Source of the DNA: a virus
DNA length: 47,573 nt
Virus record (IMG/VR): IMGVR_UViG_3300031951_000281
Coordinates: 1-47,573 of that record
Direction: 5' to 3' (one strand)
Part shown: piece after piece, positions 1-13,794 of the stretch
How the letters are laid out: the number at the start of each line of letters is the position of its first letter
Position numbering within the stretch: the first letter of the stretch is position 1
The notes under the pieces: generated by a model
Seen by the model: the letters and a program-made list of their open reading frames with translations, nothing else
The model's database searches: none
Told to the model about the DNA's origin: nothing
Position numbers and translations under genes: made by a program

Positions 1-15
1 GCGCGCCGACAGTTT

Positions 16-24
16 ATTGTACCA
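16..24 (-). promoter_or_regulatory. Possible leftward extended -10 promoter at window edge
   Basis: On the minus strand this reads TGGTACAAT, an extended -10-like element. It sits where the related module at 1922-2050 carries the TGGTATAAT that drives a leaderless gene. No ATG follows before the window edge, so any gene it serves lies outside. Weak on its own; the homology with the second module is the main support. Confidence 0.3.
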
Positions 25-76
25 CAAAAAACTGTTGTTTTTTAATCCCCTACAAAAAATATGTTATAAATATTTC

Positions 77-106
77 TTGACACGGGCACAATTATAATAG
101 TATAAT
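77..106 (+). promoter_or_regulatory. Module copy 1: rightward sigma-70-like promoter overlapping a dyad
   Basis: TTGACA at 77-82 and TATAAT at 101-106 are separated by 18 bases. The spacer and -10 form an imperfect dyad (CAATTATA / TATAATTG). Copies 2 and 3 at 1984 and 2668 have the same TTGACACGG start, the same 18-base spacer and a dyad over the -10. The predicted start near 112-113 coincides with the first base of a perfect hairpin. Upstream sequence from about 34 also matches copy 2. Confidence 0.65.
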
Positions 107-112
107 TGGCGC

Positions 113-193
113 GCCCGAAAACAAAAGTATTCATTTTTGGCCGTGAATACTTTTGTTTTCGGGCAATAAAAAAGCCCCTAATGGGGCTTTTAT
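113..193 (+). ncRNA. Predicted hairpin RNA of module copy 1, with terminator
   Basis: Directly downstream of the promoter lies a perfect 21-bp stem (113-133 with 144-164) and a 10-base loop. It is followed by a GC-rich terminator hairpin (171-178 with 183-190) with T-rich flanks. A transcript of about 80 nt made of two hairpins would result, with no convincing ORF. The sequence from 119 to about 139 is shared with copy 3. The RNA would end just inside the 3' end of the leftward SemiSWEET-like gene. Expression is inferred, not shown. Confidence 0.5.
168..193. terminator. Bidirectional intrinsic terminator
   Basis: An 8-bp stem AAAGCCCC/GGGGCTTT with loop TAAT is flanked by an A-run on the left and a T-rich tract on the right. 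It can end the leftward operon that finishes at 193 and also a rightward hairpin RNA from 113. Confidence 0.75.
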
Positions 194-444
194 TATCTTT
201 TGGGTTTTATTTTATAATACAAGATAATCGCAATAAATATAATGTTGGCAGTATAATTAAATATCAGTGGCCAATGCCATTTGGGGATAATGTAGATAAT
301 AGTGAATATCTCACCCATTCCCCACATTCCGAGAAAACCCCAAGTTAATCCATCTGAGTTTTTGGTTTTCCAAGATTCTATGGCTTGAGGTAATCCGCAA
401 AATGCCAATAAAATCGAACCAATCCAACCTATATATTCCATCAT
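193..444 (-). CDS. SemiSWEET-like PQ-loop membrane protein
   Basis: An 83-residue protein with three predicted membrane helices and a PQ-loop signature, GLPQ at 17-20 followed by a KTKNSDGLTW-like stretch. Length, helix count and motif fit SemiSWEETs, half-transporters that dimerise to move sugars across the inner membrane. Two adjacent ATGs exist; the one at 444 overlaps the stop of the upstream 38-residue ORF and has a GGAG ribosome site nine bases before it, so coupling is likely. It is last in a leftward operon after an exonuclease gene and ends at a terminator. Substrate is unknown; a role in feeding or altering the host membrane is inference. Confidence 0.72.
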   Translation of the reverse strand: MMEYIGWIGSILLAFCGLPQAIESWKTKNSDGLTWGFLGMWGMGEIFTIIYIIPKWHWPLIFNYTANIIFIAIILYYKIKPKR

Positions 445-557
445 TTGATTATCTCCGTGATTGTCTGAATTTGAAAAGGGTTTGTGTCGTATTTAGAATC
501 TAGCCGTTTTTCTTCTGCAAAATGCAAAACAAGGGCGATTATCCAAAGTGTTTTCAT
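441..557 (-). CDS. Small 38-residue hydrophobic protein
   Basis: The ORF begins ATG at 557 and ends TGA at 441, overlapping the SemiSWEET start. The product starts MKTLWIIALVLHFAEEK: a short hydrophobic N-terminus, then a charged tail, so it may be a membrane micropeptide or simply a coupling leader. A GGGG ribosome-site candidate lies about nine bases upstream. That site and the start codon sit inside an inverted repeat (533-542 with 558-567). It lies 15 bases after the exonuclease stop. Function not recognised. Confidence 0.5.
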   Translation of the reverse strand: MKTLWIIALVLHFAEEKRLDSKYDTNPFQIQTITEIIK

Positions 558-567
558 ATAATCGCCC
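533..567 (-). promoter_or_regulatory. Inverted repeat enclosing a ribosome site and start codon
   Basis: Perfect 10-base arms (GGGCGATTAT and ATAATCGCCC) flank a 15-base loop. On the leftward mRNA the upstream arm holds the purine-rich ribosome site of the 38-residue ORF and the loop begins with its ATG. Folding could limit translation of that ORF and of the coupled SemiSWEET-like gene. It could also act as a weak terminator after the exonuclease gene. Confidence 0.45.
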
Positions 568-572
568 CGATA

Positions 573-1271
573 TTAAGCTGGTTTAAAATGATCTTTGACC
601 TGAAATTGTTTCCAATTATAAGGAATCATTCTCTCGCGCCAGTCACGCTTATTAATAACCGCCTGCAAAATAGGCAATTCAAAATCGCGTGCATCTTCTA
701 AGGCAGTATGCGGCTCGATTTTAAATTCACCTGAAATAAACCCGCAAACTGATTCGGCAGTTGTTGAAAATGTCATATTGCCATTTTGAGTGGGTTTATT
801 AAAAAGGTGATTTTGCAAAACAAAATCACGATATTGTTTTTTATTGCAGATATTACCGATAGCGGCTTGCCACAAGCAAAACTTGCTAGTGAAACCCGAC
901 AAATCAATATCAGTATTTTGGCATTTGTCTAAATCGAAACTGAGATTATATGCAGTCAAAACTGGATTATATTTGCCAATGGCTTGATTAATCCAGCGAT
1001 TAATGGCATTAACCGATGCAAGCATACGAGTGCCATTATCTAGCATTTTGACATAATTGGCTTTGCGTTTTTCTAAACCCGCATAACCCCAAATATCATT
1101 GGCTTTTTTATCGTGAAACAATTCAAAATTGCCATAATGATTATTAACCAAAACAGCGCATTGATTATGGATTTTGCCTTGTCGGTCAACGATAATAATG
1201 GCAAAATCAGCCACAGTATTATTAATTGTGGTTTCAGTGTCAAGAATTGCAAAGAATTGTTTTTTAGCCAT
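573..1271 (-). CDS. DEDDh-family 3'-5' exonuclease (DnaQ/RNase T-like)
   Basis: A 232-residue protein with the DEDDh exonuclease motifs: DTET at 11-14 (ExoI), AYNLSFD ending in D113 (ExoII), and H188-x4-D193 (ExoIII). These residues bind two metal ions to hydrolyse nucleotides from 3' ends in DnaQ and RNase T relatives. Substrate, DNA or RNA, cannot be told. ATG at 1271 is chosen; a TTG nine bases upstream is less likely. A TATAAT at 1299-1304 with TTGATT upstream forms its promoter, giving a leader of about 20 nt without a clear Shine-Dalgarno. It heads the operon with the 38-residue ORF and the SemiSWEET-like gene. Confidence 0.85.
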   Translation of the reverse strand: MAKKQFFAILDTETTINNTVADFAIIIVDRQGKIHNQCAVLVNNHYGNFELFHDKKANDIWGYAGLEKRKANYVKMLDNGTRMLASVNAINRWINQAIGKYNPVLTAYNLSFDLDKCQNTDIDLSGFTSKFCLWQAAIGNICNKKQYRDFVLQNHLFNKPTQNGNMTFSTTAESVCGFISGEFKIEPHTALEDARDFELPILQAVINKRDWRERMIPYNWKQFQVKDHFKPA

Positions 1272-1298
1272 TTTGGTCAATCAGTTATTGAAGATTAG

Positions 1299-1326
1299 AT
1301 TATATCAGGTTTTTACAAAAAATCAA
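1299..1326 (-). promoter_or_regulatory. Leftward promoter of the exonuclease operon
   Basis: On the minus strand TTGATT (1321-1326) and TATAAT (1299-1304) are 16 bases apart, about 28 bases ahead of the exonuclease ATG. It overlaps the 3' end of the upstream membrane-protein gene. Confidence 0.6.
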
Positions 1327-1538
1327 AAGAAATTATTGTAAATACCCAAAAGGTTGGCAACGAAAAATGTACCATTTAGTACACCAAGCGATTTATCTTT
1401 GCGAACAAAAGCAACTGTCAACCAAGCCAGTGAACCAAAAGTAAACAAAACATAGCCCAATTTAAACATTGCGCTTGCAACTGCAAATGATCCGAGAATA
1501 CTTGCAACAGTACCGAACCAAGAAACAAAAGTAATCAT
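1323..1538 (-). CDS. Small three-helix membrane protein (71 aa)
   Basis: The product starts MITFVSWFGTVASILGSF and has about three hydrophobic segments in 71 residues. The layout resembles small half-transporter proteins of the SemiSWEET or PnuC type, but no PQ motif is visible, so this is only a fold-level suggestion. The start at 1538 overlaps the stop of the SprT-like gene as ATGA, indicating translational coupling. An upstream in-frame ATG at 1625 would lie wholly inside the protease gene and is rejected. Function unknown. Confidence 0.6.
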   Translation of the reverse strand: MITFVSWFGTVASILGSFAVASAMFKLGYVLFTFGSLAWLTVAFVRKDKSLGVLNGTFFVANLLGIYNNFF

Positions 1539-1915
1539 TTTCGTGAAATCTCCATTGTGTGATATGGGTTTGGGTCTAGCCCATATTCTAACATAATTTT
1601 TTGCCATTTTATGCCATGCCCGCAAATTTTTTCAGATTCTCCGAAAAGGTTAAAATCTGCTTGATGAATAATTTCATGCGGAAGTATTACATCTATCATG
1701 TAATTGAAGTATTCTGTTTTAGCTTTGAAAAATTTGTAACCCATTTGTATGCGGTTTTCTTCCTGAAAACACATTCCGGCAGTGCGCCAATTGTAAGGGT
1801 TAAGTTCTACCTTTGGCTCATTGTAGTGAACCAAAGGTGTATAAATTTCGCAAAGTGTATCCCAAATCATTACAGTTTCGCGTTGTAAGTGGGTTAATAG
1901 TGCTTTTTTGTCCAT
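1535..1915 (-). CDS. SprT-like zinc metalloprotease 1
   Basis: A 126-residue protein with the zinc motif HEIIH at 80-84 and a third ligand candidate in CGHGIKW (H100). This arrangement defines SprT/Spartan-like domains; Spartan cleaves DNA-protein crosslinks in eukaryotes, while the bacterial and phage roles are unclear. The ATG at 1915 follows the -10 TATAAT by exactly six bases, so the mRNA is probably leaderless. A longer ORF from 1957 would run through that -10 and is disfavoured. Coupled to the downstream 71-residue membrane protein. A second, different SprT-like gene lies at 2752-3072. Confidence 0.85.
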   Translation of the reverse strand: MDKKALLTHLQRETVMIWDTLCEIYTPLVHYNEPKVELNPYNWRTAGMCFQEENRIQMGYKFFKAKTEYFNYMIDVILPHEIIHQADFNLFGESEKICGHGIKWQKIMLEYGLDPNPYHTMEISRK

Positions 1916-1921
1916 ACGCGA

Positions 1922-1930
1922 ATTATACCA
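1922..1930 (-). promoter_or_regulatory. Extended -10 promoter of a leaderless gene
   Basis: On the minus strand this reads TGGTATAAT, then six bases and the ATG at 1915. Transcription should begin at or next to the start codon. No good -35 is visible, as is tolerated with an extended -10. Confidence 0.65.
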
Positions 1931-1983
1931 TAAAAATCCGTTGTTTTTTAAACACACACAAAAAATAAGTTATACGAAAAAAC

Positions 1984-2013
1984 TTGACACGGGCCAAAAT
2001 TATATGATATAAT
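1984..2013 (+). promoter_or_regulatory. Module copy 2: rightward promoter with perfect 27-base dyad
   Basis: TTGACA at 1984-1989, 18-base spacer, TATAAT at 2008-2013. A perfect palindrome runs 1993-2019 (13-base arms around G2006) and contains the -10, so a dimeric regulator bound there would block the promoter. The stretch from 1940 to the -35 matches 34-76 of copy 1 with a one-base length difference. Confidence 0.65.
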
Positions 2014-2019
2014 TTTGGC

Positions 2020-2065
2020 GCAAAAATTGAATACCTGAGTATTCAATTTTGTTTTGTTAACAAAA
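2020..2065 (+). ncRNA. Predicted hairpin RNA of module copy 2
   Basis: Starting at the expected transcription start, arms 2023-2034 and 2039-2050 form a perfect 12-bp stem closed by CTGA, with GTATTCA/TGAATAC at its top. A second palindrome, TTTTGTTAACAAAA at 2052-2065, follows. Rightward RNA would run into the 3' end of the HAD gene as antisense. Read leftward, the same hairpin could end the HAD transcript, so the two roles must be separated by experiment. Confidence 0.4.
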
Positions 2066-2068
2066 GGA

Positions 2069-2545
2069 TTAATGACCCTGTTTGCTTGGTACATATACTC
2101 CACGAATATTAAATCTGTCACAAACAGCTTTTAAATAAGTGGTATTATCTTCATAAAATGTAAATTCAGCATCTTTGAAATTTTTCAAATTGAAGAATTT
2201 AGCCAAACCAGCGATTTTTAATTTACCGCCTGATATAGTATCACCATCAGTGCGAGAAATAATATAATCTGGTTCGCCTAGAATATCGCGAATAAATGCA
2301 TTATCAGCATCCCGCAAAACCCTGGCAGTAGCAATAATAACAAAACAATTTTCATCTTTTAAATCCTTTCGATATTGTGCGGCTAATGGCAAAAGCGAAT
2401 CATCCATTGCACGATACTCATTTTCACGCCAGTAATTTAAATCAATACGTTCGCCATTTTCGTCAACAATAGTTCTATATCTGTGCAAACTGCAAACGAT
2501 AGTACCATCCATGTCGTAAATGCTAACTTTAGTAATCTTTGCCAT
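2069..2545 (-). CDS. HAD-superfamily phosphatase
   Basis: A 158-residue protein with all HAD motifs: DMDGT at 11-15 (nucleophile D11, general acid D13), T73 in ATAR, a lysine near 108-110, and acidic EDN at 132-134. Small phage HADs of this size often act as nucleotide or polynucleotide 3' phosphatases, as in the C-terminal half of T4 polynucleotide kinase; the exact substrate is not evident. The start has an AAAGGA ribosome site about ten bases upstream. It is flanked on both sides by promoter/hairpin modules. Confidence 0.8.
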   Translation of the reverse strand: MAKITKVSIYDMDGTIVCSLHRYRTIVDENGERIDLNYWRENEYRAMDDSLLPLAAQYRKDLKDENCFVIIATARVLRDADNAFIRDILGEPDYIISRTDGDTISGGKLKIAGLAKFFNLKNFKDAEFTFYEDNTTYLKAVCDRFNIRGVYVPSKQGH

Positions 2546-2572
2546 TTTGAAATCCTTTCAGTGTATGCACGA

Positions 2573-2578
2573 ATTATA
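2573..2578 (-). promoter_or_regulatory. Leftward -10 element of the HAD gene
   Basis: TATAAT on the minus strand, about 28 bases ahead of the HAD ATG, leaving a short leader that contains AAAGGA. The -35 region is poor. Confidence 0.45.
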
Positions 2579-2667
2579 CACGAATTTTCCCCGTTTGTCC
2601 CCGTTTCCCACAAATTTTCGATTGATTTTATTTATGGCCCCGATTGAAAAAATTAATGGCAAAACGC

Positions 2668-2697
2668 TTGACACGGCCAAATATTATATGCTATAAT
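2668..2697 (+). promoter_or_regulatory. Module copy 3: rightward promoter overlapping a dyad
   Basis: TTGACA at 2668-2673, an 18-base spacer and TATAAT at 2692-2697. The dyad arms are 2676-2688 and 2692-2703, perfect except for one extra A on the left. Upstream sequence differs from copies 1 and 2, but the core and the following GGCGC start region are conserved. Confidence 0.62.
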
Positions 2698-2702
2698 ATT
2701 GG

Positions 2703-2740
2703 CGCCCGCCTGCAAACAAAAGTATTCATTTTTGTTTGCA
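2703..2740 (+). ncRNA. Predicted hairpin RNA of module copy 3
   Basis: Arms 2711-2721 and 2730-2740 form an 11-bp stem with loop GTATTCAT. A 21-base stretch here (about 2714-2734) is identical to part of copy 1, yet folds differently: in copy 1 it is stem, here it is stem plus loop. Rightward transcription would be antisense to the SprT-like gene ending at 2752. Confidence 0.4.
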
Positions 2741-2751
2741 AACCTTGGTTT

Positions 2752-3072
2752 CTATTCTAAGTCTGTGCCTTTAATGTAAACATCACGCAAACCAAAATCA
2801 CGTTCTATTTTGTTTGCAAATTTAATAAAAGCAGGGCCATGTGTTTCCGTTTTTTTATTTTCTTCTTGCCATGCATGGATTAACTCATGTGCAATAAGGG
2901 TTTCAAAATCACGGGTTGCGTTCTTGGTGTAAACTGTAATAATGTGTTCACACAATTTGCCACGTTCTGAATACTCAGGTTCGTATTCAGCATCGCATTG
3001 TGAATTTTTACGGGGAAGAATCCGAATTGTAACGGGCTTCTTTAATTTGAGATAGTCTATAAAATGTTTCAT
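2752..3072 (-). CDS. SprT-like zinc metalloprotease 2
   Basis: A 106-residue protein with HELIH at 62-66 and a third ligand candidate H78 in TETHGPAF, the usual SprT-like spacing. It is only distantly similar to the SprT-like protein at 1535-1915, so the pair does not look like a recent duplication. The ATG at 3072 follows TGGTATAAT by six bases, predicting a leaderless mRNA. A strong terminator for the upstream HTH gene lies immediately before this promoter. Natural substrate unknown. Confidence 0.82.
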   Translation of the reverse strand: MKHFIDYLKLKKPVTIRILPRKNSQCDAEYEPEYSERGKLCEHIITVYTKNATRDFETLIAHELIHAWQEENKKTETHGPAFIKFANKIERDFGLRDVYIKGTDLE

Positions 3073-3078
3073 GTGTGC

Positions 3079-3087
3079 ATTATACCA
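3079..3087 (-). promoter_or_regulatory. Extended -10 promoter of a leaderless gene
   Basis: Reads TGGTATAAT on the minus strand, followed by GCACAC and the ATG at 3072. It is immediately downstream of the terminator at 3092-3116, so this gene is its own unit. Confidence 0.65.
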
Positions 3088-3091
3088 TAAA

Positions 3092-3116
3092 AAGCAGGGG
3101 ATTGTATCCCCTGCTT
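3092..3116 (-). terminator. Intrinsic terminator after the HTH gene
   Basis: A perfect 10-bp stem (AAGCAGGGGA with TCCCCTGCTT) and a 5-base loop, followed on the minus strand by a T-run. It lies just past the HTH stop codon. Confidence 0.8.
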
Positions 3117-3119
3117 AAA

Positions 3120-3443
3120 TCAGGCTTTTTCGGCCTTGATAAAATCTGCAATGGCTTTCAATGCAGTTTTGTTAGCTTTGGTTAGCGATTCTACATCAGC
3201 CTCACCCAAGCCAAGAGCTTCACCGATGTAGTCGGCAACAGCATCCTTTTTAACAACAGCTTCACCAGTTTTGGAAACATAGGTTTTAGCTACATAAACC
3301 TTTTCACGCGAGAGCTTTGCAACAACCGATCTCACAGTTTTGCCAAGTGTTTCAGCGATAGTTTCAACAGTTGCACCGGCTTGATAGTCGGCAACCATCC
3401 GAGCAGTCTGCTCGGGCGTATAGTTCACAGTCTTAGCAGTCAT
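3120..3443 (-). CDS. Small HTH-like DNA-binding protein (107 aa)
   Basis: Residues about 8-46 (YTPEQTARMVADYQAGATVE, then TIAETLGKTVRSVVAKL) look like a homeodomain-type helix-turn-helix with a recognition helix near TVRSVVAKL. A lysine-rich linker and an alpha-helical tail rich in Ala and Lys follow. Similar small proteins occur in marine T4-like phages (memory only) and are usually unannotated. Ribosome site AAAGGA precedes the ATG at 3443. It follows a 36-residue ORF in one leftward unit ending at a strong terminator. It is a candidate for the factor binding the AT-rich dyads, by proximity only. Confidence 0.6.
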   Translation of the reverse strand: MTAKTVNYTPEQTARMVADYQAGATVETIAETLGKTVRSVVAKLSREKVYVAKTYVSKTGEAVVKKDAVADYIGEALGLGEADVESLTKANKTALKAIADFIKAEKA

Positions 3444-3456
3444 TTCAATTTTCCTT

Positions 3457-3567
3457 TCAAGGTTTCATCACAAAAGCAAAGTATAACACAAAGGGCAGTG
3501 CAATGCAAGCCGCAAAGCCCAGGGCATCCAAAAATTCACGTTTAGTCATAGTGTCTTTCGTTGTCAT
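3457..3567 (-). CDS. Small 36-residue membrane protein, probably leaderless
   Basis: ATG at 3567, TGA at 3457. The product has a polar N-terminus (MTTKDTMTKREFLDALGF) and one hydrophobic segment ending in FVMKP. The ATG follows TATAAT by exactly six bases, as for both SprT-like genes. An alternative ATG at 3549 lacks a ribosome site. The stop lies 13 bases before the HTH start. Function unknown; the precise promoter fit is the main evidence that it is real. Confidence 0.5.
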   Translation of the reverse strand: MTTKDTMTKREFLDALGFAACIALPFVLYFAFVMKP

Positions 3568-3573
3568 GTATGT

Positions 3574-3601
3574 ATTATATCACAGTTTAGCAACTGGTCA
3601 A
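3574..3601 (-). promoter_or_regulatory. Leftward promoter of the 36-aa/HTH unit
   Basis: On the minus strand TTGACC (3596-3601), a 16-base spacer and TATAAT (3574-3579) preceded by TGA, giving an extended -10. The ATG at 3567 begins six bases after the -10. Confidence 0.7.
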
Positions 3602-3602
3602 C

Positions 3603-3794
3603 AATTTTCTGCAACTGTTACAAACTGTTACAATTAGCTAGTTCGTTCACAAATCGCTTAGGAAACAAAAGTACACAGACTAGGGGCGGTTAGTAGACTT
3701 AAAAATTCACACAGATCACTGCGCCCACCCACACGGCCTATTTATAGGACAAACTAAAAACAGGTAAGGTGCCAAAGCATTGATAAACTTAAAC
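3603..3794. other. Divergent non-coding control region
   Basis: No ORF of note. A perfect tandem 10-base repeat AACTGTTACA lies at 3613-3632, with partial matches on its left. The region separates leftward accessory genes from rightward packaging genes and ends in the promoter at 3795. Such a place could hold operators or the packaging start site; no cos or pac sequence can be identified by eye. Confidence 0.4.
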
Positions 3795-3823
3795 TTGTGC
3801 CCACCCTGCTGTCGTGGTATAAT
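3795..3823 (+). promoter_or_regulatory. Promoter of the HNH-AP2 gene
   Basis: TTGTGC, a 17-base spacer and TATAAT with TGG before it (extended -10). The following leader contains AAGGAG just before the ATG at 3846. Confidence 0.65.
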
Positions 3824-3845
3824 TTAACATATTCAAGGAGAATTT

Positions 3846-4307
3846 ATGAGCTTACACGACAAATTTATTTACGATGACGGACTATTGATCAATAAATCTA
3901 CAGGACATATTTATTCAAACATGCACGATAAAGGTTATATAAGAGTACAAATTTCTGGTAAACGCTATTACGCTCATCGTATTATATGGGAAATGTTTAA
4001 TGGACCAATACCTGAAGGCATACAAATAGATCATATCGACGGTGATCCCTATAATAACAGAATAGAAAATTTACGATTAGCTACTCAATCTCAAAATAGC
4101 GCAAATAGAGGAAAACAAACAAATCGTCCAAATGTATCTAAAGAATTACCTAAAGGGGTAAGCTATAATAAAGCTAGACGTTATGAGGCCAGAATAACGT
4201 ATAAAAATCAAGGACATTATTTAGGCAGCTATGATACACCCGAAGAAGCTTATGCGGCGTATATGGAAGCAGCAGAAATTTTACACGGCAAGTTTGTTCG
4301 ACCCTAA
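3846..4307 (+). CDS. HNH endonuclease with AP2-like DNA-binding domain
   Basis: A 153-residue protein. Residues about 40-90 carry the HNH core (HRIIWEMFNG, then IDHIDGDPYNNRIENLRLAT). Residues 103-150 look like an AP2-type three-stranded DNA-binding domain (GVSYNKARRYEARITY, then LGSYDTPEEAYAAY). This is the usual layout of free-standing phage homing endonucleases. It has its own promoter and AAGGAG site, and sits just before the terminase genes. It may be a mobile intruder or may assist packaging; the AP2 domain favours the former. Confidence 0.85.
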   Translation: MSLHDKFIYDDGLLINKSTGHIYSNMHDKGYIRVQISGKRYYAHRIIWEMFNGPIPEGIQIDHIDGDPYNNRIENLRLATQSQNSANRGKQTNRPNVSKELPKGVSYNKARRYEARITYKNQGHYLGSYDTPEEAYAAYMEAAEILHGKFVRP

Positions 4308-4395
4308 ACCAACCAAACCGACCCCAAGCCGCCCCAAACCGTCCCCAACTTCCCACACCACACAAAAATTCCCACTTGCCCATGTACACGCCCCC
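4304..4395 (+). terminator. C-rich, G-poor stretch, possible Rho-utilisation site
   Basis: Between the HNH-AP2 stop and the terminase promoter the plus strand is strikingly rich in C and poor in G, with CCAAACC/CCCCAA-type near repeats and little structure. That is the known composition of rut sites. It would insulate the endonuclease from the terminase unit. No intrinsic terminator is seen here. Confidence 0.45.
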
Positions 4396-4405
4396 GTGGT
4401 ATAAT
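4376..4405 (+). promoter_or_regulatory. Promoter of the terminase operon
   Basis: TTGCCC, an 18-base spacer, and TATAAT at 4400-4405 preceded by TGG. The leader carries AAAGGA before the ATG at 4426. Confidence 0.65.
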
Positions 4406-4425
4406 CCACCACAAAGGACCAACTT

Positions 4426-4902
4426 ATGACGCAAAATTTACCTGCTGAAACTCTCCAAATCGCCCCGGAAATGTTGGAAGTGGCCAACTGTTACCTGCAA
4501 CTGCAGGATAGTAAACGTGTGGCTGATGAACTAGACTTGCCTCCGGCTCTGGTCACTGAAATACTCTCCCGCCGTGAGGTAAAGGCGTACATCGACGCTG
4601 TATTCCGTGACACCGGATTCAACAACAAGTTTGAAATGCGTGCGGCCATGGATGCACTTATCAAACAAAAATTTCAGGAACTGCATGAATCACAAACTGG
4701 AAGCACTAAGGATATTGCTGACCTGCTACACCTTAGTCATAAAATGTCGATGGATTTGCTGGACCGCGAAATCCAACTTGAAAAACTGCGCCAAGGCCCA
4801 AGCGGCCCACAAAAGCAAGTTAACGTCCAAATCAACGAAGGCTTAGACGGGTCAAAGTATTCACAATTGGTGAGTAGACTTATAAGTGGCGAGGGTGTTT
4901 AA
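4426..4902 (+). CDS. Terminase small subunit (probable)
   Basis: A 158-residue helical protein with an N-terminal HTH-like region (SKRVADELDLPPALVTEIL, about 30-50), a helical middle, and a Gln/Val-rich tail. Small terminase subunits bind the packaging site and regulate the large subunit. The call rests on size, HTH and position: its stop overlaps the large-subunit ATG as TAATG. Sequence identity alone would not prove it. Confidence 0.75.
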   Translation: MTQNLPAETLQIAPEMLEVANCYLQLQDSKRVADELDLPPALVTEILSRREVKAYIDAVFRDTGFNNKFEMRAAMDALIKQKFQELHESQTGSTKDIADLLHLSHKMSMDLLDREIQLEKLRQGPSGPQKQVNVQINEGLDGSKYSQLVSRLISGEGV

Positions 4903-6188
4903 TGCTGACCATATCTCGAGCAGACGTAGAGTGTGATGCAATTGTTGATTTCTCACCCACCACACGGTTTATTAAACTGCCGATTACCAACTACCTTAAA
5001 CTACTAGGCATCTACGACACCATAAACCGACCCCAAATTGCACTAATCAATGCTGTCAACGACCCCAAGTACCGTTTTGTGTGTGCTGCGCTGGCCCGGC
5101 GCCTGGGCAAAACTTACATAGCCAACGTGGTAGGTCAATTGGTATCACTGGTACCTGGGTCTAACGTCTTAATCATGTCGCCTAACTATAACTTGTCAGG
5201 CATTTCGTTTGAACTGCAACGCCGGTTGATCAAACACTTTGACTTAGAAGTTGCGCGTGATAACTTAAAGGATAAAATCATTGAACTGGAAAACGGTTCA
5301 ACGATTCGTATGGGCTCGCTGTCAACCGTGGATAGTTGCGTTGGCCGATCGTATGACTTGATTATTTTTGACGAAGCTGCACTGGGTAGTGATGGCGAAG
5401 CAGCCTTTAACGTTGCGCTACGTCCTACCCTAGACAAGCCTGGTAGTAAAGCAATTTTTATTTCCACACCGCGTGGCCGCAACAACTGGTTTAGTCAATT
5501 TTATCAACGTGGGTTTGATCCTAACTTTCCAGAATGGATTAGCTTACAAGCGGACTATTCGGAAAATACTCGTATGGCTGAGTCGGATGTTGCCGAAGCA
5601 CGCAGGTCGATGAGTAAAGCAGAATTTGAACAAGAATACTTGGCTTCATTTACCGTGTTTGAGGGTCAGATTTATTCGCTGGCACCTAGTGATGTAATGG
5701 AACCGCCTATAAACTTGCTTGGTGAAGCCATAGCTGGCTGCGACCCTGGTTATCGTGACTACACAGCTTTTGTGGTAATCATCTACGACCAAACAACTGA
5801 TTGGTTTTGGATTGTTGACGAGTACTTGCAAAACGAAGCTACTACTGCCGAACACGCCGAAGCATTTAAAACCATGTGTGGTCGTTGGGGTGTGGAAACC
5901 ATTTTTATTGACTCGGCTGCAGCACAGTTTGCCTCAGACCTAGCATACATCTACGACTTGGCGTCAACCAAAGCCAAAAAAGATGTACTGCCTGGTATTG
6001 CGTACGTGCAAACACTAGTAGCCCAAGGCCGCTTAAAAGTAGCACCGCACTGCACACACTCACTGGCAGTGTTTGACCAGTATCGTTGGGATAATAAAGA
6101 AGGTTTACAAAAAGAACGTCCCAAGCATGATGAGTACTCCCACATGGCCGATGCTATTCGCTATGCCTTGTATACATATACACTGTAA
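4902..6188 (+). CDS. terL: Terminase large subunit
   Basis: A 428-residue DNA-packaging ATPase/nuclease. Walker A-like ARRLGKT ends at residue 71, Walker B LIIFDE is 153-158, and the coupling motif STPRG is near 189-192. The C-terminal RNase H-like nuclease has acidic residues at D281 (GCDPGY), D337 (IDSAA) and D417 (SHMADAIRY). It cuts concatemeric DNA and pumps it through the portal. Translationally coupled to the small subunit. A consensus leftward promoter just downstream could produce antisense RNA into its 3' end. Confidence 0.95.
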   Translation: MLTISRADVECDAIVDFSPTTRFIKLPITNYLKLLGIYDTINRPQIALINAVNDPKYRFVCAALARRLGKTYIANVVGQLVSLVPGSNVLIMSPNYNLSGISFELQRRLIKHFDLEVARDNLKDKIIELENGSTIRMGSLSTVDSCVGRSYDLIIFDEAALGSDGEAAFNVALRPTLDKPGSKAIFISTPRGRNNWFSQFYQRGFDPNFPEWISLQADYSENTRMAESDVAEARRSMSKAEFEQEYLASFTVFEGQIYSLAPSDVMEPPINLLGEAIAGCDPGYRDYTAFVVIIYDQTTDWFWIVDEYLQNEATTAEHAEAFKTMCGRWGVETIFIDSAAAQFASDLAYIYDLASTKAKKDVLPGIAYVQTLVAQGRLKVAPHCTHSLAVFDQYRWDNKEGLQKERPKHDEYSHMADAIRYALYTYTL

Positions 6189-6210
6189 ACGGTATTGTAC
6201 TTAATATTCT

Positions 6211-6239
6211 ATTATACACGAGTTTGGCTGAGTGTTCAA
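6211..6239 (-). promoter_or_regulatory. Leftward promoter facing back into terL
   Basis: On the minus strand TTGAAC (6234-6239), 17 bases, TATAAT (6211-6216). No plausible leftward gene follows, so it would make antisense RNA to the 3' end of terL. It lies about 60 bases from a rightward promoter pointing the other way. Confidence 0.5.
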
Positions 6240-6274
6240 GTACAAACACGCTACCTGCAACATAAATTCTGGTA

Positions 6275-6303
6275 TTGACTTTTTGTTGCATACCTTGTAT
6301 AAT
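6275..6303 (+). promoter_or_regulatory. Promoter of the HNH/portal unit
   Basis: TTGACT, a 17-base spacer, TATAAT. An AAGAAGG ribosome site follows before the ATG at 6335. Confidence 0.7.
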
Positions 6304-6334
6304 ACTAGTAATCTCAAGAAGGTCCAAATAAAAA

Positions 6335-6766
6335 ATGGCCAAGAACACAAACAAACGTATTCCTGTAAAGTGGGTACGTGATCGTGCCAAGGCGGCATAC
6401 GATAAAAAATCGCAGTGTTTTATTTGCGATACTACAAAAGACTTAGAGCTTCACCACCTACACTCAATTACAATACTACTAGAAACGTGGGCTGCGCGCA
6501 AAGGTTACGACATATCAACAGACGAAGGCATTTTAGCTGTTCGTGATGAATTTATTGATGAGCATCGAATAGAGTTATATGACAAAGTTTACACCCTTTG
6601 TAATCCGCATCATGTAGCGCTGCACTCGATTTATGGAAAAGCTCCAGCAGTAGGTTCCGAACCAAAACAGCAGCACTGGATTGAAACACAGCGCACAAAG
6701 CACGTTCATGGTGATAAAGCCGTTCCCCAAAGCACACACAACTCATTTTTCTCGCGGTTTATTTAA
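6335..6766 (+). CDS. HNH nuclease with zinc-binding cysteines, packaging-associated
   Basis: A 143-residue protein with CFIC (C28, C31), HHLH (40-43) and CNPHHVALH (C89, H92, H93, H97). This is the zinc-stabilised HNH layout seen next to terminase genes in many long-tailed phages, where such nucleases aid terminase cleavage (HK97 gp74 is the studied example). It lies between terL and portal, with its own promoter. The C-terminus is polar. Homing nuclease is the alternative, but position favours packaging. Confidence 0.75.
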   Translation: MAKNTNKRIPVKWVRDRAKAAYDKKSQCFICDTTKDLELHHLHSITILLETWAARKGYDISTDEGILAVRDEFIDEHRIELYDKVYTLCNPHHVALHSIYGKAPAVGSEPKQQHWIETQRTKHVHGDKAVPQSTHNSFFSRFI

Positions 6767-6774
6767 GGGCAAAC

Positions 6775-7959
6775 ATGAGTTGGATAACAAAATCATCTAG
6801 CTGGATTCGTGAAAAACTGAATCCGGCTCAAGTGCGTATTGCACAAGAAGAAGGCACACAAGTTGGCACTGATTCGAAAATCAGTTACTTTCAAAGCTTT
6901 CAAAAATTAGAGTCAGTTAACCGTTCAGTAAGTTTACTGGTTAACTCAGCGGCTTCACTAGACTACGATATAAAAGACAAAGTACACGACGGAGTTGTCA
7001 CAGGCGTTCGCCAAAAAACACTAAACACGCTGTTGAACTTTCGTCCAAATCCTTATCAGTCAGCACAAGATTTTCGCAGTTCGCTTTTTACTGATTTCGT
7101 CATAGAAGGCAACGCATTTGTACACTTTGATGGTACGTTTATGTACCACCTGCCAGCCAGCAAAGTGGAGATCATGACCGACGAAAAAACCTTTATCAAG
7201 GGTTTTCGCTACAATGGCATGGTAGACTTCAAAGAGTCTGAAGTTTTCTACTTCCGCGATTTAAGTTCAGAATCTATTTATCGCGGTGCAAGCCGACTGC
7301 AAGCAGCAGACAGGTCAATTAATTTGCTTTACTCAATGCAGCAGTTTCAAGAAAACTTCTTTGACAACGGTGCTGTGTTTGGTTTAGTACTAACAACTGA
7401 CAACACACTGTCACAAGTTGCAAAAGAAAAAACAATTCAATACTGGCTGCAAAAGTACAACGTTAAAAACGGCGGCAAGCGCCCAGTTATTTTGGATTCG
7501 GGACTAAAGCCACATCAATTGGCCGAAACCAATTTCAAAGACATGGATTTTGATACGTCAATTAAAACCCATGGTGAAAAAATAATGCAAGCTATTGGTG
7601 TCCCACCAATCTTGTTGCAAGGTGGCAATAACGCAAACATTTCGCCTAACCTAAGACTATTCTACTTAGAAACAGTACTGCCAATAAACCGCAAGTTTAT
7701 TAGTGCTGTTGAACGCTACTTTGGCTACGACGTTGAAGCTATTACCAGCTCCGTTTCAGCACTACAACCAGAATTAAAAGACATTGCCGCTTACCACGCA
7801 ACATTAGTAAATGGTGGTATTATTAGTCCAAACGAAGCTCGTGTAGAGTTGCGTTATGAACCAAAGCCTGGCAGTGATGATTTACGAATTCCTGCAAATA
7901 TTGCAGGTTCAGCCGCAAATCCTAGCACTGGAGGACGTCCCGCCTCCGCTCAGGAATAA
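6775..7959 (+). CDS. Portal protein (HK97 family)
   Basis: A 394-residue protein matching phage portals in length and pattern: KLESVNRSVSLLVNSAASL near the start, NPYQSAQDFRSSLFTDFVIEG, then a middle with LPASKV and the HGEKIMQAIGVPPILL region typical of HK97-type portals. Twelve copies form the ring through which DNA enters and to which the neck attaches. It starts nine bases after the HNH stop, with AAGGGC upstream. The C-terminal Pro/Ser-rich tail is probably disordered. Confidence 0.9.
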   Translation: MSWITKSSSWIREKLNPAQVRIAQEEGTQVGTDSKISYFQSFQKLESVNRSVSLLVNSAASLDYDIKDKVHDGVVTGVRQKTLNTLLNFRPNPYQSAQDFRSSLFTDFVIEGNAFVHFDGTFMYHLPASKVEIMTDEKTFIKGFRYNGMVDFKESEVFYFRDLSSESIYRGASRLQAADRSINLLYSMQQFQENFFDNGAVFGLVLTTDNTLSQVAKEKTIQYWLQKYNVKNGGKRPVILDSGLKPHQLAETNFKDMDFDTSIKTHGEKIMQAIGVPPILLQGGNNANISPNLRLFYLETVLPINRKFISAVERYFGYDVEAITSSVSALQPELKDIAAYHATLVNGGIISPNEARVELRYEPKPGSDDLRIPANIAGSAANPSTGGRPASAQE

Positions 7960-7973
7960 CACAAAGGGGTATT

Positions 7974-9902
7974 ATGGTAGATAAAAATAAAGTCCTGTTT
8001 TTAAACAGTTCTTTTACAAAGAGCACTCTACCTGCCGCAGACGACAACAACGAAAGCGTAACTATCGAAGGTTATGCATCCACTGTTGACGTTGATAGAC
8101 ACGGTGATATTGTTCCTGCCAGCGTGTGGGAAAAGGGCGTAGAGAATTACTTGAAAAATCCAGTAATTCTAGCGTACCACAATCACAGTGAACCTATTGG
8201 CAGGATGATTGAGCATCGCGTTGACGCAAAAGGTTTGTGGATAAAAGCACGGATTTCTAAAGCGGCTGGAGATGTTTACGATCTTGTAAAAGACGGCGTG
8301 CTAACCGCCTTTAGCATTGGTTTCCGTATCGCTGATGCGGAATATAATTCAGCCTTAGAGCTGTTTGTTGTAAAAGAACTGGAACTGCACGAAATCTCAG
8401 TTGTGTCTGTGCCAGCTAATCAAAATACACTATTTAGTCTTTCTAAGGCGTTTGACACAGCCGAAGAATTTAAAAGTTTCAAAATGCAATTTGCTAACCC
8501 AAGCGACTCAGCTAAAGGGCTAGAAGCCTCCGGCGAAGCAAAAAGCGATATCACAAAGGAATTGGAAATGACTCCAGAACAAGTACAAAAAATGTTGGCT
8601 GACGCTGCTACTGCTGCCGCCGAACAAGCCACTAAGTCCCTGCTAGAAGCACAAGAAAAGGCTGCTAAAGAAAAAGCTGCCGCTGCTGCAACTCAGGCTG
8701 AACTAGATGCAAAAATCAAAGCTGCTGTTGCTCTAGCAACACCAACTACAACTGGTGCAGAAGCACTATTGGCTGAAGTTGAGAAGCGTTTCGCTGCTCA
8801 AGCTGAAGAAACTAAGTCTGTTGTTGCAGGCCTAGAAGCTAGCCTAAAGGAAAAGGCTGCTGAACTAGAAGCTATCCAAAAGTCACGTATGCAATTCACA
8901 GACGGCAAAGCCGGTGAAATGTCTTACGCCGACAAGGAAAAGGCTGTTATCCTAGCTAAAATGGCTGGTAAGAGCTTAGCTGACACTAAGTTTGGTCGTG
9001 AAATGGTACAAAAGTACGGTGCTCACCTACCAAGCGACACATGGGAACTAGAAGTTTCTCTAAACATGGAAAACGAAGTTCGCCGTCGTTTAGTTGTTGC
9101 TCCTACCCTACGTGGCATTGCAATGCAAACTAACGTTATGACTATTCCTGTGAACCCAGAAGCTGGTGTTGCAACATGGATGGCTAACTCAGCATTTGGT
9201 ACAACAGCTTCCGCTGGTACTACAGCAACACACGCGCTAAAAGAAATTACTCTAAACGCGTACAAAGTTGCAACAAACGAATACGTTGCCTACGAAGAAG
9301 AAGAAGACAGCCTAGTTGCTATTATGCCTGTTATTCGTGATGCTATGGTTCGCCGTGTTGCTCGCGCAGTTGATCGCGCTATGCTACGTGGTGCAGGTTC
9401 CGGTAGCGACCCAGTTAAAGGTCTAGCAGCATACGACGCAGTAAGCGCTGTTACACTAGATATCAGCAATGCTGAAAAGACTACTGTTGCTAAGCTACAA
9501 GCTATGCGTCGTGACCTAGGTGCATGGGGTCTAGATCCAGCAGAACTAGTTTACATCGTAAGCACAGAAGGTTACTACGACCTACTAGAAGACACCAACT
9601 TCCTAACAGTTGACAAAGTTGGTAACGACAGAGCCACTCTGTTAACCGGTCAAATCGGTGCAATCGGTAACACACCAGTTCTTGTAAGTGCTGAATTTGC
9701 TGACAAGGCTGACGGTGCTGTTAACGCAATCTGCTTTGCACCAGGTAACTTCTTGGTTGGTAATCAGCGTGGTCTACGTGTAGACACACAAGACTTAGTA
9801 GAGACACAACGCCGTGTTATGGTAGCTAGCCTACGTACCGGTATGACTCAAGTTACAACTAACCTAGGACCAGCAGTTTCTGCCCTACGTTTTGTACCTT
9901 AA
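7974..9902 (+). CDS. Fused prohead protease, scaffold and major capsid protein
   Basis: A 642-residue fusion. Residues about 20-160 form an HK97-type prohead protease (H69 or H71 in YHNHSEPIG, S114 in FSIGF, acidic 137-140). Residues about 199-310 are a coiled-coil, Ala/Lys/Glu-rich delta/scaffold region. The rest is the HK97-fold capsid protein. Self-cleavage would free mature capsid. An in-frame ATG at 8568 (M199) has AAAGGA seven bases upstream, so separate capsid-only translation is likely. Leucine codons in the capsid part are mostly CTA, unlike E. coli. Strong hairpins follow the stop. Confidence 0.9.
   Translation: MVDKNKVLFLNSSFTKSTLPAADDNNESVTIEGYASTVDVDRHGDIVPASVWEKGVENYLKNPVILAYHNHSEPIGRMIEHRVDAKGLWIKARISKAAGDVYDLVKDGVLTAFSIGFRIADAEYNSALELFVVKELELHEISVVSVPANQNTLFSLSKAFDTAEEFKSFKMQFANPSDSAKGLEASGEAKSDITKELEMTPEQVQKMLADAATAAAEQATKSLLEAQEKAAKEKAAAAATQAELDAKIKAAVALATPTTTGAEALLAEVEKRFAAQAEETKSVVAGLEASLKEKAAELEAIQKSRMQFTDGKAGEMSYADKEKAVILAKMAGKSLADTKFGREMVQKYGAHLPSDTWELEVSLNMENEVRRRLVVAPTLRGIAMQTNVMTIPVNPEAGVATWMANSAFGTTASAGTTATHALKEITLNAYKVATNEYVAYEEEEDSLVAIMPVIRDAMVRRVARAVDRAMLRGAGSGSDPVKGLAAYDAVSAVTLDISNAEKTTVAKLQAMRRDLGAWGLDPAELVYIVSTEGYYDLLEDTNFLTVDKVGNDRATLLTGQIGAIGNTPVLVSAEFADKADGAVNAICFAPGNFLVGNQRGLRVDTQDLVETQRRVMVASLRTGMTQVTTNLGPAVSALRFVP
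8555..8570 (+). promoter_or_regulatory. Internal ribosome site and start for capsid protein
   Basis: AAAGGA at 8555-8560, seven bases, then in-frame ATG at 8568. Initiation here gives a 444-residue product (MTPEQVQKML...) that begins at the delta/scaffold coiled coil, close to an ordinary HK97-type capsid precursor, and lacks the protease. This would set a high capsid-to-protease ratio. Confidence 0.6.
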
Positions 9903-9909
9903 TTAATTT

Positions 9910-9967
9910 GACAAGGAACGAAAGTTCCTTGTCTTTTAATACGATTCTCAGAGTCGTATTAAAAGAC
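9910..9967 (+). terminator. Two overlapping hairpins after the capsid gene
   Basis: Hairpin A: 10-bp stem (9910-9919 with 9924-9933) closed by a GAAA tetraloop and followed by TTTT. Hairpin B: 14-bp stem (9931-9944 with 9954-9967). They share 9931-9933, so full A and full B exclude each other. Together they could attenuate transcription or protect the 3' end of capsid mRNA. Confidence 0.65.
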
Positions 9968-10002
9968 AATAATATGCCTATGCATTAAAAGGAGCCCTGT
10001 AC

Positions 10003-10578
10003 ATGGCAGTAACACAACTGATAACTAAAGCAGAGTATAAGGCGTATGCAGGTATTACTTCTACAAATCAAGACACAGAAATAGATACGCTAATTCCAAA
10101 AGTATCTCAACTAGTAAAAAGCTACTGCCGCAGATCTTTTGGCGATTTTGCCAACGACGCAAAAATCGAAGTATTCAACGGCGGTGACACAAAGTACTAC
10201 TTAAAAGAGTACCCGCTACTAACACTGCTGTCACTAGAATACAGCACTGACTACGGTCAAAATTACGTGTCTCTGGAAGAATTCAAAGACTTTGTTACAG
10301 ATTTGCAAGAAGGCAGCGTTGTTAGCTTAGATCCAAAAGGGTTTGTTTATGCTATCAATGGTTACACTGTTACTTACACAGCTGGATATGCTGTAATACC
10401 TGAAGATTTAAAACTTGCAGTAATGGACTTAGTTACTTATTACCGCAAAAATGACGCTGCAATTCACTCAACAAAAGCGCCTGGCACTAATGCCGTGCAA
10501 ATAGAATATATTTCAACTACTACCCTGCCAGCACATATTCGCAGAGTATTAGACCTATACGTAGCGGATTATACATAA
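10003..10578 (+). CDS. Head-tail connector (HK97 gp6-like)
   Basis: A 191-residue protein beginning MAVTQLITKAEYKAYAGI with an N-terminal helical bundle, as in gp6/gp15-like adaptors that bind under the portal. The middle has a beta domain (YTVTYTAGYAVIPEDLKLAVMDL is a hallmark-like stretch). Position after the capsid gene supports the call. AAAAGGAG precedes the ATG. The stop overlaps the next start as TAATG. Confidence 0.75.
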   Translation: MAVTQLITKAEYKAYAGITSTNQDTEIDTLIPKVSQLVKSYCRRSFGDFANDAKIEVFNGGDTKYYLKEYPLLTLLSLEYSTDYGQNYVSLEEFKDFVTDLQEGSVVSLDPKGFVYAINGYTVTYTAGYAVIPEDLKLAVMDLVTYYRKNDAAIHSTKAPGTNAVQIEYISTTTLPAHIRRVLDLYVADYT

Positions 10579-12068
10579 TGGCTATCGAGCAGTTTAGTGC
10601 GTTACTTCAAGACAAAGTATATAAAGACTGGCTCAAAAAAGCAAACAAAAATATTGTAACAGCAAGCGCACAAACTTTGCGTACTAAAGAACAAGCTGCT
10701 TCAAAAACCAGTTTTTATATAACCGAAGGTACTGTACAAAAAATGTACAAAACCATTACCGGTATTGATTTAGACAGCCTTGAAGCTTCACTGTTACTGG
10801 AAGAAATTAGACTTCCTACTGCTGCAAATGCTGATAGGTCACTGGTTGGTACTACTAAAAAAGTTGGCGGTCAAAATGCGGTATTCTTTAAAAATATTGG
10901 TTTTGACACAATTACAACCAAATTAAATCAAGCACTTGCTTTATACCCAGAAGTAGCACTGGCTTATGAAGAGGCTGAGCAAAAATATTATGATACTCAG
11001 TCTAAATTAGTTACTTCAAGCAAAGAGTATCAAACACTAAAGCCTAGCGAAAAACAACAAAAGTTAGACGAGATTAGTAAAGAAGCCAAGCGTAGAGCTT
11101 CTTTTGGTTTTTACTTTAACAAAGGTCACGTAGTAAGCGTGGCAGCAAACTTAGCAAGACAGTTTAAGCAAGATATAGAAAAGGCTAATAAGCTAGCCGA
11201 TAGTCAGCGCAAATTATTGGTTGATGTACTAGACAAGTACATCAATAAACTAATACAAGATGACTTAAACACTGCCAATTTACCCGATGCATTAAACCAA
11301 ACACTTTATGCCGAGTATATTAAAAGCAGTGACAAGTACTTAGTAGAAATTCAAGTAGCTACTGACAACATCGAAGCTGGTGCTTCCAGTATACCTATTG
11401 TTAAAGAATTACGTGATTTATTTTCTGGCAAAATACCAGAACAAGCATTACTAGAAACACTAAAGTCTTCTAAAGCCCTAGGCGAAGCCTTAGTAACAAC
11501 CGATGGTTCACCAAGTTTAGTAAAGCTAATAGAAGCAGACATTGTAGACATTTTATCTAACAATAAACCTAGCAAAAAGGTTTATAAGTCGCCAAGAGCA
11601 GAAATTGGATCTAACTCGCTGAAGCTAGCTAAGCCAAAAAAGAATACGGCTAAGATAGGAAAACTAAAGCAGTTAAAAAATAAAACTGCATCGGTTAAAG
11701 CAAACCCTAAAGCGGTGCAAGTTGGTTTAGCAGACAGCGAAGCTAATTTGGTTTCACTGCAAAATGTTTTAAACGCAGGACTAGTTGACGCCGTAAAAAG
11801 AAACATGGGCGACGGCACAAGCCGAAGCGTACTAAACCTGCAATCAGGAAGATTTGCAGAAAGCGTAGAAGTGGTTAGGCTAAGCGAAAGCCGGGCCGGT
11901 ATGATAACCGCTTTTTACAGTTACATGAAAAACCCATACGCAACCTTCTCACAAGGCGGTCGTCAGCAAAATCCACGGTCACGAGACCCTAAACTGCTGA
12001 TAAGCAAATCAATTCGTGAAATCGCCACACAACAAGTCGGCAATCGTTTAAGGGCCGTTAACATATGA
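10578..12068 (+). CDS. Neck or head-completion structural protein (496 aa)
   Basis: Not firmly recognised. The N-terminal 350 residues are helical, Lys-, Gln- and Glu-rich. A basic linker (KPKKNTAKIGKLKQLKNKTA, about 355-375) follows. The last 100 residues (LNLQSGRFAESVEVVRLSES onward) recall the small HK97 gp10-like neck fold. It lies between the connector and tail terminator, where head-closure or neck proteins are found. It may thus be a gp10-like domain with a long N-terminal extension; that is inference. Overlaps both neighbours, so it is in a tightly coupled unit. Confidence 0.5.
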   Translation: MAIEQFSALLQDKVYKDWLKKANKNIVTASAQTLRTKEQAASKTSFYITEGTVQKMYKTITGIDLDSLEASLLLEEIRLPTAANADRSLVGTTKKVGGQNAVFFKNIGFDTITTKLNQALALYPEVALAYEEAEQKYYDTQSKLVTSSKEYQTLKPSEKQQKLDEISKEAKRRASFGFYFNKGHVVSVAANLARQFKQDIEKANKLADSQRKLLVDVLDKYINKLIQDDLNTANLPDALNQTLYAEYIKSSDKYLVEIQVATDNIEAGASSIPIVKELRDLFSGKIPEQALLETLKSSKALGEALVTTDGSPSLVKLIEADIVDILSNNKPSKKVYKSPRAEIGSNSLKLAKPKKNTAKIGKLKQLKNKTASVKANPKAVQVGLADSEANLVSLQNVLNAGLVDAVKRNMGDGTSRSVLNLQSGRFAESVEVVRLSESRAGMITAFYSYMKNPYATFSQGGRQQNPRSRDPKLLISKSIREIATQQVGNRLRAVNI

Positions 12069-12502
12069 GTCGAAGAACTTCAATTTTAAACGCACTAACA
12101 GAAAAGCTAAAGTTAATAGACGGCAACCAACCTTATCAAGTAAACTTAAGTGGCAATGCGTATGCAAAACTAAAGTTCTGGGACGAAGTCGAAGACTTTC
12201 CGGCTGTGTACTGCACACCAGGCAGCGAACAGCGCGAGTATCATCCAGGTGGATTTGCTTGGGGTTACTTGGGTTTGTGCATAAAAGTTTATTGTCGCGG
12301 TGAAGAAGCGCAACTACAGCTAGAGCAGTTGCTGGAAGACATAGAGCACTGTGTAGATCGTAACCGTGTGCTTGTATACGACACAGCGAAAAACTACGAA
12401 ACAACTGAAATATTAGTTCAGTCAATTGTAACCGACGAAGGGCTATTAGCACCTTATGCAGTCGGAGAAGTTAACTTACAAGTGCGCTATGCCATAATGT
12501 AA
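12065..12502 (+). CDS. Tail terminator / tail completion protein
   Basis: A 145-residue protein starting MSRRTSILNALTEKLKLIDG. Size, alpha/beta pattern (FPAVYCTPGSEQREYHPGG, LCIKVYCRGEEAQ) and placement just before the tail tube gene fit the gpU-type tail terminator, which caps the tube and joins it to the head. The start overlaps the preceding stop as ATGA. Confidence 0.7.
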   Translation: MSRRTSILNALTEKLKLIDGNQPYQVNLSGNAYAKLKFWDEVEDFPAVYCTPGSEQREYHPGGFAWGYLGLCIKVYCRGEEAQLQLEQLLEDIEHCVDRNRVLVYDTAKNYETTEILVQSIVTDEGLLAPYAVGEVNLQVRYAIM

Positions 12503-12581
12503 GCCCCAGCGTTACAGCAACAGCAACAGATAAAAGTCTAGTTAAAGTGCTACAACGCCAAACTAAAAAAGGAAATGAAAT

Positions 12582-13718: not shown

Positions 13719-13735
13719 TAAGCGTTATTTTTCAA

Positions 13736-13766: not shown

Positions 13767-13794
13767 CCTTGTTTGATAACCATAAATATTACAT

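Follow-up and report, generated by a model that had tools for sequence, protein, structure and literature searches.

Why would a phage carry strong promoters that face the 3' ends of its own genes? The question is raised by the left end of IMG/VR virus record IMGVR_UViG_3300031951_000281 (positions 1 to 47,573; this whole stretch of 47,573 bases is referred to below as the window). Three times, between small leftward genes, a module occurs there that consists of a rightward promoter, a dyad covering its -10 hexamer, the word GGCGC and a second inverted repeat. We consider it reasonably probable that these modules are T5-type, strand-specific single-strand interruption sites (G^GCGC, on the terminase-sense strand) placed in the starts of strong host-sigma70 promoters and flanked by two DNA inverted repeats, in a probable pre-early region. 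This reading is supported by the conservation of promoter and GGCGC, the covarying dyads, the one-strand orientation, the position at the 3' ends of leftward genes and an excess of contig ends that begin with GCGC.

Three Module Copies in the Window

The features of the three copies, and of the left end itself, are as follows.

1-4, plus strand: putative interruption site GCGC at the contig 5' end, cut just before base 1; the related loci L004 and L240 read TTTTTG^GCGCGCC there
77-112, plus strand: copy 1 promoter, with TTGACA at 77-82, an 18-base spacer, TATAAT at 101-106 and GGCGC at 108-112
89-96 and 101-108: arms of the copy 1 first dyad, which spans TATAAT; putative cut between 108 and 109
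113-164, strandless: copy 1 downstream inverted repeat, arms of 21 bp
174-187, strandless: bidirectional terminator-like repeat GCCCC-TAAT-GGGGC, read directly, between copy 1 and a leftward gene of 83 aa
1984-2021, plus strand: copy 2 promoter, with TTGACA at 1984-1989, TATAAT at 2008-2013 and GGCGC at 2017-2021; putative cut between 2017 and 2018
1993-2019: copy 2 palindrome of 27 bases, arms of 13 bp around one base, covering TATAAT
2023-2050, strandless: copy 2 downstream hairpin, arms of 12 bp and a CTGA loop
2668-2705, plus strand: copy 3 promoter, with TTGACA at 2668-2673, TATAAT at 2692-2697 and GGCGC at 2701-2705; putative cut between 2701 and 2702
2680-2688 and 2692-2700: arms of the copy 3 first dyad, which covers TATAAT
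2711-2740, strandless: copy 3 downstream hairpin, 11 contiguous pairs, or 12 with one mismatch

An initial annotation of this DNA had described a three-copy element of promoter, dyad and hairpin, and direct reading of the sequence bears it out. The similarity of about 40 bases that it had reported upstream of copies 1 and 2 is visible, and the copies do fire rightward against their neighbors, the genes beside them all being leftward. The hairpin stems of 21, 12 and 11 bp stand as well; the word GTATTCA, which the hairpins were said to carry, is not kept throughout the relatives. After copy 1 comes the terminator-like repeat at 174-187, a feature that had escaped the earlier list. A strict pattern written for copies 2 and 3 found exactly those two matches in the window and none in 100 shuffles, and the exact word TTGACACGG occurs three times in the window, always on the plus strand.

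A Module Family Upstream of the Terminase Gene

Relatives were sought among 80 loci found with the terminase, from which 15 records were taken, one of them (G001) nearly identical to the window. The pattern TTGACA-N15-19-TATAAT-N0-6-GGCGC matched four to eight times in each of the 15 records, on a single strand per record, and its reversed form, used as control, gave no match. A looser pattern, applied to the 80 loci and the window, gave 211 matches; four minus-strand matches of a different appearance were discarded. The remaining 207, spread over 50 of the 81 sequences, all lie 1.4-9.0 kb upstream of the terminase gene and point toward it; in one record (G004) the modules stand at the far contig end, an arrangement that circular permutation fits. 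The general layout is TTGACA, a spacer of 17 or 18 bases, a -10 hexamer and GGCGC. The initial annotation is supported in that promoter-plus-dyad units form a real family, which is conserved in related phages and reaches far beyond the window.

In a larger set, made up of 347 overlapping loci with duplicate sequences removed, 518 of 565 candidates ending in GGC continue with GC; of the remaining 47, many look like chance matches with a poor -10, judging by the first 14 viewed. When the query dropped GGC and asked for TTGAC, a spacer of 18 bases and a -10 whose exact complement is also present, GGCGC followed within 5 nt in 243 of 245 sequences. GGCGC is therefore near-invariant even though its distance from the -10 varies, and it is probably the core of the module.

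The modules occupy packed slots: the 10th to 30th percentiles of the distance from GGC to the stop codon of the leftward gene are 46-49 nt. In 183 of the 207 contexts the gene to the right runs leftward, and 54 modules fall inside some called open reading frame (ORF calling was crude). In the slot beside an SprT-like gene, arms and hairpins differ between the modules of different phages. Searches with the exact module pattern returned nothing from bacterial genome contigs, where the pattern may be too strict, or from viral contigs, where it was too strict, since looser local patterns matched many. GTATTCA was considered as a recognition element in the loop and rejected, because the word is missing from many relatives. 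Another word, GNATACNNNNGTTTKC, occurs one to six times per record in five of five records.

Contig Ends at GGCGC

The contig ends found in this clade were compared. In a first count, six of 126 contig ends started with GCGC, all on the promoter strand. The enlarged set comprises 151 contigs with 142 promoter-strand and 104 opposite-strand 5' ends, and leaves out loci that stop short of a contig end and a few contigs fetched later. GCGC starts ten of the 142 promoter-strand ends (0.37 expected from its frequency; Poisson 9e-12) and none of the 104 opposite-strand ends. It is the commonest first 4-mer on the promoter strand, the next having four occurrences, and three further promoter-strand ends miss GCGC by one to three bases.

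Matching places, orthologous or paralogous, were sought for the ten exact and three near cases. For the exact ends they show a G just before GCGC, except for L165 (no match) and L048 (an offset of one base), and they read ..TATAATTTTG or similar directly before GCGC. A module promoter lies upstream of seven exact ends and, with the offset, of L048 too. The window's own start falls in TTTTTG^GCGCGCC and has a spacer-17 promoter upstream. We infer that promoter-strand contig ends at G^GCGC may be nicks in phage DNA; their excess is the strongest new evidence, and it is indirect.

A Covarying Dyad over the -10 Hexamer

Modules with an 18-base spacer read GCC-X'-ATTATA-loop-TATAAT-X-GGC, where X' complements X, the loop has 3-6 bases and X is mostly absent, T, TT, ATT or TTT. 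Of 154 such modules, 26 without a recognizable left arm (or with a long X) were set aside. Among the 128 tested, X is matched by X' in 127, an empty X counting as a match (mean 71 and maximum 82 in 2000 shuffles), and the match is perfect, GG included, in 71 (mean 25, maximum 41, again in 2000 shuffles). Where the -10 is not TATAAT (mostly TAAAAT), its exact complement is found in the spacer in 55 of 72 cases, against a mean of 7.2 and a maximum of 15 in 1000 shuffles. Scored from the GG outward, a dyad of at least 8 pairs is present in 358 of 486 modules (73.7%), a proportion that drops to 30.6% when modules exchange their left parts and to 0% when the spacer letters are shuffled; this scoring omitted 32 of the 518 modules, including 28 read in a shifted register. 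Shared descent inflates all these counts. Since the changes occur within orthologous slots and inside the -10 hexamer itself, we nevertheless argue for repeated compensation, in which the sequence of the dyad changes while its self-complementarity is kept.

Mismatches opposite the fixed GG (A 27, G 15, T 13) show no wobble preference. The first dyad also contains 38 G-T pairs, 30 of them at the innermost pair adjoining the TG of an extended -10; we read these as promoter-driven, though they could speak for either a rightward RNA or the promoter. A hidden leftward promoter was considered as well, the left arm reading TATAAT leftward, and was rejected: the window copies have no consensus -35 there by eye, and other leftward -10s lie elsewhere.

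The Downstream Repeat: DNA or RNA

Most modules carry a second inverted repeat just after GGCGC. Within the 60 nt downstream, arms of at least 9 bp are found in 347 of 486 modules versus 8 of 486 letter shuffles. The predicted fold is stable (median -17.2 versus -8.6 kcal/mol for nearby stretches; 162 modules), and the stems are near perfect: 116 stems from 123 modules hold 1585 pairs and 55 mismatches. Selection for an RNA made from a single strand would be expected to leave G-U pairs on that strand, and no such bias is seen on either strand (G-T 8 versus A-C 12). Folding energy likewise shows no difference between the strands (56 versus 57 stems, p=0.71), and an Rfam scan gave no match at gathering scores. 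The downstream hairpins listed mostly have no T-run by eye; some copies have separate terminator-like repeats. A symmetric DNA element, or a hairpin required in the transcripts of both directions, fits these sequences better than a small RNA. The reading as an RNA family was rejected on the empty Rfam result together with the absence of an RNA signal in the strand-bias tests.

A Probable Pre-Early Region

The genes next to the modules are:

193-444, minus strand: PQ-loop gene of 83 aa (Pfam PF04193), its 3' end facing copy 1
2069-2545, minus strand: homolog of the T5 pre-early gene dmp (PHROG 415), its stop codon just right of copy 2
2752-3072, minus strand: SprT-like gene (Pfam PF10263), its 3' end facing copy 3

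The product of 2069-2545 matches that of dmp, which T5 carries in its terminal repeat, at 37% over 86 aa (E 4e-13), the only significant match in the T5 stretches compared. T5 dmp matches 44 of 83 loci, the window being one. The homolog is leftward here, opposite to the direction of T5 dmp relative to the terminase. T5 A2 was not found among the loci. In relatives, the stretch left of the modules contains one-strand clusters of repeats, among them TTTTGCACTTGAC and CACTGGCGCA; in T5 the injection-stop region combines a nick with Fur-box-like repeats and six copies of GGATT(T/C)GCACA. Given the dmp homolog and the injection-stop-like repeats, the modules probably lie in the part of a T5-like genome that is injected first and holds the pre-early genes.

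Clusters of TTTTGCACTTGAC/CACTGGCGCA repeats on one strand stand beside a promoter at L016 3931-4050, L014 2773-2890 and L041 2039-2160; these resemble the T5 injection-stop repeats, and similar GCAC repeats adjoin modules. Fur-box-like palindromes (at most four mismatches) occur in the injection-stop region of T5 (AY543070, L087) at about 9552-9709, and in or near the hairpin slot at L044 2810, 3844, 5219, 5970, 6845 and 7695, L073 337 and L004 3858. The exact 16-mer TGTTTCACGTGAAACA, which we take to be the chromosomal parS consensus, lies near module hairpins in some relatives, at L044 3874, 5250, 5993 and 6869, L045 18, 944 and 1820, L048 51, 75 and 2056, and L054 1186 and 2949; six other loci have a form with one mismatch. 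Binding of host ParB at these sites is possible.

As for the phage itself, the large terminase subunit is about 50% identical to those of T5-like Vibrio phages (Demerecviridae) among the matches listed, and the portal protein is 35-42% identical to the nearest twenty matches listed. Small leftward genes fill the first 3.5 kb; rightward head, tail and lysis genes come after. The phage collection gave no near DNA match to positions 1-20000 of the window and no tblastn match to the gene at 1535-1957. The 235-aa product of 573-1280 (minus strand) has a DTET motif and by eye the look of a DnaQ-type exonuclease, with no Pfam match. Minus-strand -10s at 1927, 2578, 3084 and 3579 serve leftward genes and, by eye, have no clear -35. 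At 1927, 3084 and 3579 an ATG follows 6 bases past the -10, a spacing that suggests leaderless mRNAs or a phage factor. In L004, three small genes in the module region (3105-3416, 4371-4730 and 8219-8542, minus strand) look alike, their paralogy being judged by eye, and the product of the last is the same helix-turn-helix (HTH)-like protein as that of window 3120-3443.

Relation to T5 Interruptions and Other Known Elements

The T5 record annotates five major single-chain interruptions, which are four distinct sites, one being present in both terminal repeats. Three of the five features carry the note NPu pGCGCN, all five sequences begin with GCGC, and without exception they lie on the minus strand, as the T5 terminase gene does (T5 outside 45,001-71,999). 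The modules resemble the single-chain interruptions of T5 and BF23 in having the NPu^pGCGCN core, on a single strand that is the terminase-sense strand, in a T5-like phage. They differ in placement, each site being set in an intergenic promoter with a covarying dyad on either side and several occurring in a few kb, and in having no RGG after GCGC. One T5 site, that of the terminal repeat (9748/121279), has a palindrome directly after it as the modules do, the longest among 83 RGCGC sites examined on that strand. A palindrome as a general rule for T5 nicks was rejected, only one of the four distinct sites having a strong one.

PMC3517423 gives R/GCGCRGG as the consensus of the major T5 nicks and states that the heptamer is also present five times on the un-nicked strand; in phage phikF77, it reports, nicks are repaired early and reappear late. 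PMC3517423 and PMC11780129 both describe localized phage nicks, those of T5 included, as having no known function. The interruptions of phiKMV-like and tf/LUZ24-like Pseudomonas phages are likewise bound to a motif, confined to one strand and unexplained in function; they differ in having unrelated motifs, and the excerpted descriptions mention no promoter or dyad.

A second likeness comes from the T4-type phages RB49 and phi1. Their PeSL (promoter-early stem-loop) cassettes drive early genes and act as terminators. Like these, the modules join a strong sigma70 promoter to a stem-loop in an intergenic slot; unlike them, the module promoters face converging genes, the hairpins mostly have no T-run, and the GGCGC end site is present. 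In RB49, a repeat lies downstream of the -10 or across it in some early promoters (for instance TTGACA..TATAATGGCGGGTGT..ATACCCGCC), and most of 14 promoter-like sites there have no unusually stable fold. The initial annotation knew of no named phage element with this layout, but PeSL cassettes and T5 interruption sites both come close to it. We found no literature that joins nick sites with promoter-dyad modules among open-licence publications. A promoter with a stem-loop is known in kind; a nick-type site joined to a promoter and two covarying dyads we did not find described.

Discussion

Several observations weigh against the modules being interruption sites. Only one of the four distinct T5 sites is followed by a strong palindrome (arm 9), the others having arms of 4-5 like most RGCGC sites, and none overlaps an annotated promoter in the tables viewed. 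The modules have no RGG after GCGC, and the bases that follow GGCGC vary. In another group of nicked phages, which are tf-like, 88% of the 542 nick motifs overlap genes at least in part, according to PMC11780129. All 20 spacer-17 copies tested have at most four pairs and no first dyad. The link from contig ends to nicks is indirect, the strand assigned to the additionally fetched contigs assumes that the query gene is leftward there, and the window's own left end does not coincide with a promoter. T5 A1 was not found in six records, in a search with no positive control. Loci of the nicking genes sciA and sciB are unmarked in the T5 stretches compared.

The rival explanations overlap in part, and our estimates for them need not sum to one. 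The modules could be PeSL-like cassettes without a nick, in which a strong early promoter and stem-loop isolate neighboring genes and let cassettes recombine, GGCGC being a discriminator or regulator site. Repeats adjacent to or overlapping some RB49 promoters, and the different modules that fill slots before orthologous genes, would agree with this. We consider it unlikely all the same, as GGCGC is near-invariant (243/245) despite its variable distance from the -10, the contig-end excess is base-exact and one-stranded, and the module promoters face gene 3' ends rather than driving genes. Decidedly less credible is the proposal that short hairpin RNAs made rightward act as regulators of phage or host, or else silence the leftward genes. 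The strong promoter, the stably folding hairpin no more than about 10 nt from the expected start and the terminator-like repeats of some copies, such as copy 1, speak for such RNAs; yet stem sequence and loop are not conserved, and the first dyad, being upstream of the expected start, would be outside the RNA. With no strand bias in mismatches or energy and a blank Rfam scan, the family of small hairpin RNAs suggested at the outset finds no support as an object of selection; of its alternative, antisense or insulator units, the insulator role is still plausible.

A low probability also attaches to an assembly artefact, with GCGC ends arising where assemblies break at a short module repeat and dyads arising as palindromes perfected by template switching. 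Modules do share 30-40 bp, and hairpins can stall polymerases, but the ends fall on one base of one strand in contigs with different flanks, and repeats as short as this shared stretch rarely break assemblies. Least probable, by a little, are operators for a dimeric repressor over each promoter, bound by the phage HTH protein or by host factors. This would account for dyads over the -10, with an HTH gene next door, and some relatives do have exact parS 16-mers and Fur-box-like palindromes. The initial annotation had proposed that one regulator reads all the dyads; arm sequence varies while complementarity is kept, the same slot is filled by different palindromes, and the varying half-site spacing (loop 3-6) argues against a single shared operator.

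Taking the modules as interruption sites, the dyads may help the nickase choose its site. The broken strand would be the one from which the leftward genes are transcribed; for the rightward promoter it would be the non-template strand. When DNA nicked in this way enters the cell, a polymerase moving leftward would run off at G^GCGC, its mRNA ending just past the hairpin, and the rightward promoter could still start. Sealing and re-nicking would make this a one-way insulator that can be reset, and the modules are perhaps insulators of transcription of this kind. Given the early repair and late return of nicks reported for phikF77, such a gate could be timed. It is tempting to extend the idea, as a conjecture that we ourselves rate as doubtful, to site-specific nicks of the T5 type as transcription gates: a nick in the start site, between two DNA hairpins, would permit a one-way start and force opposing polymerases to run off, and sealing by ligase followed by re-nicking before packaging would reset the pre-early program.

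If true, the transcription gate would give a function to nicks known since the 1960s. The fusion, in one clade, of a putative nick to promoters and covarying dyads links the puzzle of the nicks to transcription, and dyads and promoter suggest what besides GCGC may mark a nick site. Counts of 4-mers at contig ends may reveal nick sites in other uncultured phages.

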